Assembly (NCBI RefSeq): GCF_007747445.1
Contig: NZ_CP036425.1
Coordinates: 3,642,175 to 3,706,174, forward strand
Reading direction: 5' to 3'
DNA: 64,000 nt
Source of the DNA: Poriferisphaera corsica
GTDB taxonomy: Bacteria; Planctomycetota; Phycisphaerae; Phycisphaerales; Phycisphaeraceae
Shown: piece by piece, positions 40,734 to 43,608 of the stretch
How positions within the stretch are numbered: the first letter of the stretch is position 1
Layout: the number at the start of each line of letters is the position of its first letter
Notes under the pieces: model-generated
What the model saw: the letters and a program-made list of their open reading frames with translations, nothing else
What the model was told of the DNA's origin: nothing
Databases searched by the model: none
Translations under genes and position numbers: made by a program

Positions 40734-41873
40734 ATGGGTCCCTTTATCTGCGAAGCGAGCGATATCTTGCGTTTTTTTGCTCTGATCACATCGGTCGCAG
40801 TAATCGTAACAGCCCTGCTAATCTGGGGATTGCTACGGATCGATTACCAAACACAACTCACCACTACTTATGAACCCACACGCGCAACTATTATCGAGAC
40901 GCACGTCCATAAAACATGGTTTGGCTTCTACAGACCCGTCATCACCTATCGATATCAGATCGGCGGCCAGATCTATGCATCAACGAAATACGCGCCACTA
41001 AATCAATTCGGCTCACAGCCCTGGGCGTCAAAAGTCGCCGAACAATACCAACCTCAACAAGTCACAACAGCATACGTTTCCACACAAAATCTAATGATGG
41101 CATTCCTTACCCCTCACACCACTTTCACACCTTACATTGCAACCATTTTTTCAATGCTACTAATTTTCATGACCTGCTTTTTGATCAGAAACGCAGGCAT
41201 TTTTTCTAGTAAGCCTCACACACCACATCATCCAAACCGTTATCATTGGTATCAATTAACTACAGAGCACATCCCATCTTTCTATGCCTTCGGCATGATC
41301 TTTATCTCTCTGCTCTGGTCAATTCTGATACTCCTGCCATTCATTCATTTTCTTCTTTTCGCTTACTACGATCACGAACACACCAGACTCATCATACCAA
41401 CACTCATCACAATCATTGCCGTTATGCTGACACTCATTCCAGCTACGATGGGATTTTCAGCATTACATACCGCCAAGCCAATCAAGACCATACGCGCTCT
41501 AACCACTCAGCCACAAATATTCCTCGACGCACCACTCGCCATCCGTACTGATCTTCTGTTTGCCAAAGCATGTGAAATCCAATCAATCAAAATCAACCTG
41601 ACTTGCAAACAACTCACAGGCATTACATCGCGTACTTGTTTTTCAATGACACACACCATCCAGCAACATCAGCACATCCTGCCGGGCCAGACTATCACCG
41701 GCTCACATCGCTTTAGCGTCCCTCCATCCAAACAAAGGCCATCCTCTCATTTCACACGTTTCGACTATCCACGCATCGCATGGGCTGTTGAAATACACAC
41801 AACATTCATCAACAATCGTACACTCACATGGTGTTTTCCTATTGCTGCTGAACGCACGACCTCCGAAAGATAA
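40734..41873 (+). CDS. DUF3592-domain membrane protein
   Basis: 379 residues. A first membrane helix (LRFFALITSVAVIVTALLIWG) precedes a soluble DUF3592-like beta domain (YQTQLTTTYEPTRATIIETH, PVITYRYQIGGQIYASTKYA). Further membrane helices lie near 125-150, 185-215 and 220-245, and a C-terminal extracytoplasmic beta domain is rich in Thr and His. Function unknown. It stands alone, divergent from ruvA and 68 bases before marR. Confidence 0.75.
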   Translation: MGPFICEASDILRFFALITSVAVIVTALLIWGLLRIDYQTQLTTTYEPTRATIIETHVHKTWFGFYRPVITYRYQIGGQIYASTKYAPLNQFGSQPWASKVAEQYQPQQVTTAYVSTQNLMMAFLTPHTTFTPYIATIFSMLLIFMTCFLIRNAGIFSSKPHTPHHPNRYHWYQLTTEHIPSFYAFGMIFISLLWSILILLPFIHFLLFAYYDHEHTRLIIPTLITIIAVMLTLIPATMGFSALHTAKPIKTIRALTTQPQIFLDAPLAIRTDLLFAKACEIQSIKINLTCKQLTGITSRTCFSMTHTIQQHQHILPGQTITGSHRFSVPPSKQRPSSHFTRFDYPRIAWAVEIHTTFINNRTLTWCFPIAAERTTSER

Positions 41874-41906: not shown

Positions 41907-41932
41907 TTGACAAATTTCATTAGCCCGCTAAT
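41907..41932 (+). promoter_or_regulatory. marR promoter and operator
   Basis: TTGACA at 41907-41912 and AATTAT at 41930-41935 with 17-base spacing. Between them lies the perfect inverted repeat ATTAGC-CC-GCTAAT at 41919-41932. A start at +1 would fall on or next to the ATG at 41942. Confidence 0.7.
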
Positions 41933-41941
41933 TATATAGAT

Positions 41942-42451
41942 ATGTTTCTACTCCAAGATCTTCCAGATGAGCAAGTCATCACACATGCCCAAGCCATCCA
42001 CGGACAATTCAACCGTCAAGGCCTACTTCTCTTCCTGCAAATACTCAAAACAGGCTCAGACCTACTCAACAATCTCGATCAATTCTTATCTAAATACAAC
42101 CTCAAACATGGCCGCTGGATCACGCTCGTCTTATTGCAACGTGAACCCTCGCAAACATCCTCACCTTCTGAACTCGCAAAGAAGCAGGGAATCACACGCG
42201 CAACCATGACCAATCTTCTCAATAGTCTCGAAAATGATCTGTACATCGAACGAATTGAACACCCGACAGATGCACGCGCAACAAACGTTAAACTCACACG
42301 AAAAGGCCGAAACCTTTTAAAAAACATCATGCCACGTTACTACCAAGCAATCAATCAACTCACCGCCGAATGCTCCACCAAACAACTCAAAGATACTCAA
42401 AAAATGCTCAATCTGATTTCCGGTAAAAGCGAAGAGATTTTCAGTCAATAG
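41942..42451 (+). CDS. MarR-family transcriptional regulator
   Basis: 169 residues. The winged helix-turn-helix is at about 60-135: LKHGRWITLVLLQRE, SELAKKQGITRATMTNLLNSLE (recognition helix) and the wing IERIEHPTDARATNVKLTRKG, the MarR signature with DxR. Long N- and C-terminal helices form the dimer. No ligand is known. An ATTAGC-N2-GCTAAT operator overlaps its own promoter and recurs before the aldo-keto reductase downstream, so it most likely represses both and responds to an electrophile or quinone-like signal (inference). No Shine-Dalgarno. Confidence 0.92.
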   Translation: MFLLQDLPDEQVITHAQAIHGQFNRQGLLLFLQILKTGSDLLNNLDQFLSKYNLKHGRWITLVLLQREPSQTSSPSELAKKQGITRATMTNLLNSLENDLYIERIEHPTDARATNVKLTRKGRNLLKNIMPRYYQAINQLTAECSTKQLKDTQKMLNLISGKSEEIFSQ

Positions 42452-42527
42452 CAACATACTATTTACCCAACACATAGCGCAAAACGAAAGCACATTTACA
42501 CTGATATGCATGAAACACAATGCTTTA

Positions 42528-42541
42528 ATTAGCCTGCTAAT
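42528..42541. promoter_or_regulatory. MarR operator before the aldo-keto reductase
   Basis: ATTAGC-CT-GCTAAT, matching the 41919-41932 site at 13 of 14 bases. It overlaps a TTTAAT hexamer at 42524-42529. Confidence 0.72.
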
Positions 42542-42577: not shown

Positions 42578-43567
42578 ATGAGAAAACATATACTCGGCAA
42601 CAGCAACTTAGAAGCTTCCATCCTTGGTTTTGGATGCATGGGCCTCTCCGAATTCTACGGCCCGCCAACCGAAGAAGCCGAATCACTCAACATACTCAAT
42701 CACGCCTACCATAACGGAATCAACTTTTTCGACACCGCAGATATTTATGGCTGCGGACATAATGAACAACTACTATCAAAGTTCATCCGCGATAAACGCA
42801 GCAAGATCATACTCGCCACCAAATGCGCTATCGTTCGCAAACCTGGCGAATACGCAAGAAAAATTGACAACTCACCTCAATACATTCACAACGCTTGCGA
42901 CGCATCACTGAAACGCCTTCAGACTGATTACATCGACCTGTATTACATCCACAGATTCAGCGGCGAAACACCTATCGAAGACGTCATGCACGCACTCGCG
43001 AAACTCAAAACGCAAGGCAAAATCAGACAGATTGGCCTTTCCGAAGTATCCGCAAATACACTACGAAAAGCCTGTAAAATCACACCAGTAGCCGCCTTGC
43101 AAACCGAATACTCTATCTCAACACGTGATGTCGAAGCCGATATCCTTCCTACTTGCCATGATGTTGGCACGGGTTTTGTCAGCTACTCACCACTTGGTCG
43201 CGGCTTGCTCACCGGCCAGATTAAATCCTTAAACGACCTCGCCGATGATGATTTCAGACGCATCTCCCCACGATTTAACGAAGAAAATTTCAACAACAAT
43301 CTCAAACGTTTAAGCCTTCTGAACGATCTCGCTCAATCAAAAAACTGCACGCCAGGTCAAATCGCAATCGCATGGCTACTTCATCGCCCTGTACCCATAT
43401 TTCCCATTCCCGGAACCAAACGAATCAAATACTTAGATCAGAATATCCAAGCCGCAAACATCGAGCTGACTCGCGATGAAATCAGCTTAATCGACAACAG
43501 CTTTCCTCCAGGATTCTTTGGTGGCCAACGCTACCCCGAAGCTGGTATGACTGGTATCAACACATAA
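42578..43567 (+). CDS. Aldo/keto reductase
   Basis: 329 residues from ATG 42578 (MRKHILGNSN), with AGGA about 9 bases upstream; the open frame begins with TTG at 42545. TIM-barrel AKR signatures: FGCMGLSEFYG, NFFDTADIYG (catalytic Asp, Tyr), ATKCAI (Lys), DYIDLYYIHR (His), EYSISTRDVE and the NADPH-binding PIPGTKRIKYLDQNI. It reduces carbonyls to alcohols; the substrate is unknown, though this subgroup often handles aromatic or sugar aldehydes. It is the probable target of the adjacent MarR protein. Confidence 0.93.
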   Translation: MRKHILGNSNLEASILGFGCMGLSEFYGPPTEEAESLNILNHAYHNGINFFDTADIYGCGHNEQLLSKFIRDKRSKIILATKCAIVRKPGEYARKIDNSPQYIHNACDASLKRLQTDYIDLYYIHRFSGETPIEDVMHALAKLKTQGKIRQIGLSEVSANTLRKACKITPVAALQTEYSISTRDVEADILPTCHDVGTGFVSYSPLGRGLLTGQIKSLNDLADDDFRRISPRFNEENFNNNLKRLSLLNDLAQSKNCTPGQIAIAWLLHRPVPIFPIPGTKRIKYLDQNIQAANIELTRDEISLIDNSFPPGFFGGQRYPEAGMTGINT

Positions 43568-43575
43568 AAAACACT

Positions 43576-43608
43576 AAAAAAGCGGCGAATTAAATCGCCG
43601 CTTTTTTT
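43576..43608. terminator. Bidirectional terminator between reductase and dut
   Basis: AAAAAAGCGGCGA and TCGCCGCTTTTTT form a 13-bp stem, with A and T runs on both sides, between convergent genes. Confidence 0.93.

Follow-up and report, generated by a model that had tools for sequence, protein, structure and literature searches.

Among the systems described so far, the closest ones to the locus reported here are those of the MarR-type regulators SlyA and YetL. An operator consensus for SlyA, TTAGCAAGCTAA, has been proposed on the basis of footprinting and limited SELEX experiments; in E. coli, a site of this type is centred 22 bp upstream of the start of slyA itself, a later version of the consensus is looser (TTAN6TAA), and both negative and positive actions of the protein are reported (PMC5797941, in the part of the article available). 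In vitro, SlyA acts as a repressor both of slyA and of the divergent ydhIJK operon, an effect that salicylate partly relieves (PMC6401476, available in part). In Bacillus subtilis, YetL is a MarR repressor encoded beside a single oxidative enzyme (review PMC10458429, in its accessible portion). The pair of genes analysed here was not described among the matches listed by literature searches on MarR regulators with a reductase and an operator and on Poriferisphaera regulators, in the accessible portions of those sources, which does not prove its absence from the literature.

The locus lies in a stretch of 64,000 nucleotides of the genome of Poriferisphaera corsica (the whole stretch is hereafter referred to as the window, and the genome as G000). 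Two palindromes are located at positions 41919-41932 (ATTAGCCCGCTAAT) and 42528-42541 (ATTAGCCTGCTAAT); each of them is a perfect 6+2+6 inverted repeat and 13 of the 14 bases are common to both, with a single differing base, in agreement with what had been claimed in a previous reading of the sequence alone (the sequence-only reading). The first palindrome (putative operator 1, ATTAGC-CC-GCTAAT, plus strand) is embedded in the marR promoter, for which a consensus scan identified a -35 hexamer TTGACA (41907-41912, plus strand) and a -10 hexamer AATTAT (41930-41935, plus strand) separated by a 17-bp spacer. The site had been placed between the two hexamers; it does lie in the promoter, but, since the scan sets the -10 at 41930-41935, its last three bases are also the first three of the latter. 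The ATG of marR (41942) is located just seven bases past the -10, and no ribosome-binding site is visible; transcription is predicted from the sequence to start near the A of the ATG, and thus the transcript is possibly leaderless.

The second palindrome (putative operator 2, ATTAGC-CT-GCTAAT, plus strand) starts 50 nt upstream of the ATG of the reductase gene (42578), and an AGGA motif can be seen by eye eight bases before this codon. The only candidate promoter for the reductase is a weak one (TTTACA-18-AATGCT, 42495-42524, plus strand), which was recognised by eye and falls below the threshold of the consensus scan; operator 2 is located downstream of its -10, a geometry unlike that of operator 1. 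The scan of the 126-nt gap existing between marR and the reductase gene revealed no terminator-like site, and a near-symmetric hairpin resembling an intrinsic terminator follows the reductase at 43576-43607, being reported by the scan on the minus strand only.

The regulator gene (41942-42451, plus strand) encodes a protein of 169 aa, whose assignment to the MarR family is clear from the sequence: the Pfam MarR_2 domain was retrieved with an E value of 7.3e-10, and the two winged helix-turn-helix models of the family (PF01047 and PF12802) were matched above their curated cut-offs (35.6 bits vs 24.6 and 39.3 bits vs 27, respectively). The protein falls outside the narrower groups: the SlyA equivalog model NF002926 gave 39.3-39.7 bits against a cut-off of 120, the best NCBIfam match, i.e., MprA/EmrR (NF008122, residues 8-153), gave 59.6 bits against 157, and HpaR, with 43.6 bits, was far below its cut-off of 121.2. 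The closest relative of solved structure is YetL (7wze), aligned over nearly the full length with an E value of 9.4e-16, or 1.2e-26 when a three-row profile was used. Thiol-switch MarR regulators (OhrR, MhqR, and YodB type) possess a conserved sensor cysteine. Among the three MarR orthologues described below no cysteine column is invariant, and the single cysteine of the window protein is not shared by the other two; this sets the protein apart from the thiol-switch regulators and argues against a conserved thiol sensor of the OhrR type, while being compatible with ligand binding. The induction by quinones or aldehydes suggested in the sequence-only reading accordingly finds no support in these data.

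The gene at 42578-43567 (plus strand) encodes an aldo-keto reductase of 329 aa (Pfam Aldo_ket_red, E 2.1e-78; PF00248, 263.8 bits vs a cut-off of 24), and hence both gene identities proposed by the sequence-only reading were confirmed. Aldo-keto reductases share a D-Y-K-H catalytic tetrad. The closeness to the perakine reductase/IolS-type enzymes concerns both the overall similarity, these being the best solved relatives (E 2.6e-78 and 5.6e-56, respectively), and the putative tetrad D52-Y57-K82-H125 (numbered from motif positions), which aligns with the corresponding residues of perakine reductase. None of the seven NCBIfam models listed is matched by the protein above its cut-off (for YdjG, as an example, 158.3 bits vs 550). 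The surroundings of marR in the window comprise, besides the reductase, a dUTPase-like gene (recognised by eye) and, upstream, a gene for a DUF3592 protein (40734-41873), which occupies the same place beside marR in the congener ZRK32.

The distribution of the regulator was evaluated through homologue searches in which the genome of the window is counted each time: homologues were retrieved from 12 of 61 relatives, 3 of 51 genomes of the family (1e-12), at least 13 of 400 genomes of the order, and at least 5 of 392 genomes of the phylum at E 1e-25, with up to nine candidates scored per genome in the order and phylum searches. A contig scan with the single MarR protein gave zero matches, and the same scan with a three-row MarR alignment recovered the congener Planctomycetota bacterium ZRK32 (CP066225.1, referred to as G001), a Phycisphaeraceae MAG belonging to the same family as the genome of the window (JANQFR010000097.1, G026), and one weak match in Hwanghaeella.

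In ZRK32 the gene order (DUF3592-marR-reductase) is the same as in the window and both palindromes are kept, with an identity of 65% for MarR and 70% for the reductase. The TTGACA hexamer is present in its marR promoter with an 18-bp spacer, and the region upstream of marR maintains this hexamer, the palindrome arms, and the -10, while the palindrome centre is changed and, according to the alignments inspected by eye, much of the remaining upstream DNA has diverged. The ZRK32 marR palindrome is a perfect 11+2+11 repeat (ATATAATTAGCCTGCTAATTATAT), and the one preceding its reductase gene (ATTAGCAAGCTAAT) corresponds letter for letter to the published SlyA consensus. The MAG regulator shares 38-40% identity with that of the window, and its locus harbors the palindromes GTTAGTTGGCTAAT and GTTAGCCTGCTAAT. 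The counterpart of operator 1 upstream of marR shows two changes in one arm; the second palindrome precedes a gene of the CMD family (carboxymuconolactone decarboxylase; PF02627, 62.9 bits vs a cut-off of 23), and no reductase homologue was found in this genome at E 1e-60. The CMD-family gene (L021:3755-4354) appears by eye to have a twin-arginine-like start. In all three genomes, GCTAATTATAT is identical upstream of marR, the distance from the beginning of TTAG to the marR start being 22, 22, and 27 nt in G000, G001, and G026, respectively, whereas the two bases at the palindrome centre vary among sites (CC, CT, AA, TG). The idea of a self-contained switch formed by MarR and the reductase thus finds support in ZRK32, where both putative operators are conserved along with the gene pair, but the position of the second palindrome in the MAG indicates that a reductase is not an obligatory partner of the switch.

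The interpretation that we consider the best, with a probability of roughly 0.8, is that of a local switch through which MarR would control its own gene and a single neighbouring target, acting as a ligand-released repressor of both genes. A dimer of the product of 41942-42451 would bind the palindrome of its own promoter and block RNA polymerase, leading to autorepression; a second dimer would bind the palindrome upstream of the reductase gene, near its likely transcription start, and repress it. A small ligand would release the protein, so that marR and the reductase would rise together, and the reductase would probably reduce a carbonyl compound representing the ligand or a relative of it. 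By analogy with SlyA, repression of marR from site 1 and of the reductase gene from site 2, relieved by a ligand, is the most likely arrangement, and the functional part of the sequence-only reading is probably right. Weighing against this explanation are the weakness of the reductase promoter by consensus, the lack of such a site before four more distant reductase homologues, the narrow occurrence of the strict site among MarR loci, and the recurrence of an equivalent pair in 4 of 100 shuffles of the window (see below).

The location of operator 2, on the downstream side of the one candidate -10 recognised by eye and different from that of operator 1, would also suit a regulator that binds both sites and either activates the reductase gene or represses only itself, and SlyA is itself reported to act in both directions (PMC5797941, in the part available). 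Repression is, however, what typically results when an operator overlaps a promoter, as at marR, and the operon neighbouring slyA is repressed in vitro (PMC6401476, available in part); this alternative is considered unlikely.

As for the occurrence of the motif at other loci, a whole-locus scan with the looser pattern TTAGN4CTAA was positive in 3 of the 15 MarR loci of a first set (those of G000, G001, and G026) and negative in the other 12, including two paralogues in G000 and G001. The pattern was found in none of the four MarR loci of a second set and in 2 of 12 loci of weaker homologues (L011 in G017 and L016 in G022), the remaining 10 being without it; these sets overlap, since L018/L041, L019/L042, and L009/L038 are the same genes. 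At L011, TTAGTTAGTGTGCTAACTAA (base 1406 on the MarR strand) is a perfect 8+4+8 repeat just upstream of the MarR frame, and at L016 two copies are located at bases 349 and 372 of the turned locus, where the MarR match starts at base 501. These two loci indicate that, in this family of genomes, TTAG half-sites are shared by MarR genes beyond the three orthologues. The presence of the looser pattern before distant MarR genes is as expected of ordinary MarR operators, and among the loci scanned the strict GC-centred form is confined to G000, G001, and G026. No such site was detected upstream of four more distant reductase homologues of the order (L025, L026, L027, and L028). Palindromes of a different operator type, of the form TCTTGA...TCAAGA, occur in several copies upstream of two distant MarR homologues (L039 in G061 and L040 in G239).

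Since the looser pattern precedes distant MarR genes in two related genomes, related regulators may share the half-site, and a different MarR paralogue encoded in the same genome might be what binds the palindromes of the window, alone or in competition; two further MarR proteins were retrieved from this genome by one search and three by another. That such a paralogue is what actually binds these sites appears improbable, more so than the previous alternative: the regulator encoded in the window is the best match of its genome to the SlyA model (39.3 bits vs at most 26 for the other MarR proteins), in none of the three genomes is a strict site found away from this marR, and the start of one paralogue (locus L041, and L042 in the congener) is preceded by a palindrome of another kind. 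The latter paralogue is found in both congeners (G000:C1 ~3269600-3270064 and G001:C1 ~1363785-1364243) and is followed, as judged by eye, by a gene resembling those of DoxX-type membrane proteins. In ZRK32 its palindrome (TTAGTTAGGCACC...GGTGCCTAACTAA) has 16-base arms and a TATAAT-like centre; that of G000 is less perfect.

Judged on the window alone, the pair of palindromes is mildly unusual. It is the sole pair of perfect repeats with identical arms within 1 kb (arm of 6, spacer of 0-8), an equivalent pair is present in 4 of 100 dinucleotide shuffles of the window (2 of 100 if the spacer is set to 2), and, with two mismatches allowed, the window holds no more copies of the motif than expected (2 found vs 2.00 expected). 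In the whole genome (4,291,168 bases) the 14-mer has two exact places, both at the marR locus, and with up to two mismatches it has 143 places vs 188 for the reversed control pattern. Each of the three genomes searched (G000, G001, and G026) contains just two exact matches to the pattern RTTAGYNNGCTAAT, and all six adjoin orthologous marR genes; having been composed after these sites were seen, the pattern was bound to find them, and the informative part is that it has no other place. The random scattering of the motif over the genome, which according to the sequence-only reading would have contradicted its proposal, was therefore not observed. The reversed control of RTTAGYNNGCTAAT gave 3+2 (forward+reverse) matches in G000, 2+8 in G001, and 0+0 in G026, so that a handful of chance places per genome would not be surprising, and it is the placement and conservation at one locus, rather than the match count, that are taken to exclude chance.

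The possible existence of a larger regulon was rejected, the mismatch searches with both the 12-mer and the 14-mer being below their reversed controls. With one mismatch, the 12-mer has 77 places vs 228 for the control in G000, 69 vs 259 in G001, and 14 vs 95 in G026; near-matches are thus rarer than in the control and give no sign of further targets, although weak sites could be missed by such searches. The 12-mer core has one additional exact place per genome, not common to the genomes. In G000 (L051) it is outside the long ORFs; in G001 (L052) it appears, by eye, to fall inside the coding sequence of a signal peptide, and in G026 (L050) its neighbour, again by eye, is a LacI-like gene. The one-mismatch places of G000 include L003-L005. 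In spite of the shuffles mentioned above, palindromes arisen by chance, or RNA hairpins acting as attenuators, are extremely improbable, given the conservation and placement of the sites in three genomes, the location of site 1 upstream of the predicted transcription start, and so outside the RNA, and the 2-nt spacer, too short for an RNA loop, which could form only at the expense of the stem.

The local switch proposed here would be of the standard type in which a MarR protein regulates itself and a neighbouring target, in a planctomycete genus. It leaves the general picture of MarR regulation unchanged; its value resides in that, for a planctomycete that has received little study, a regulator is assigned together with its two putative operators and a probable target, the whole forming a neat local switch whose operator sequence lends itself to testing. 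The data as a whole point to the use of a SlyA-type site by a MarR protein outside the SlyA group, and to an apparent exchange of the target between genera. A more tentative proposal, which we regard as possible without favouring it, is that regulator and operators represent a cassette outliving its target: a branch of planctomycete MarR proteins lying outside the SlyA equivalogs would use the operator sequence of enterobacterial SlyA and would have kept both operators, while the target was exchanged between genera (reductase or CMD-family gene).

Compared with the known systems, the regulator has its best NCBIfam match in MprA/EmrR, but below the cut-off, and its neighbours are not efflux genes. 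YetL, which responds to flavonoids, provides the closest solved structure and adjoins one oxidative enzyme, in a manner comparable to the regulator of the window and its reductase; its target, however, is the divergent monooxygenase gene yetM, whereas the neighbours in the window are the DUF3592 gene and a co-directional reductase gene. The differences from SlyA concern the neighbour, which is a co-directional reductase gene instead of a divergent efflux operon, the score of the regulator, far under the equivalog cut-off, and the lack of signs of a wider regulon. The operator 1 centre, moreover, is 16-17 bp before the marR start (vs 22 bp in E. coli slyA). What the locus shares with SlyA/RovA (in the available parts of the sources) is the site just upstream of the start of the regulator, the putative control of both the regulator itself and the adjacent transcription unit, and the operator core TTAGC-NN-GCTAA of the SlyA consensus, present at the marR promoter as TTAGCCCGCTAA, which starts 22 nt before the marR start.
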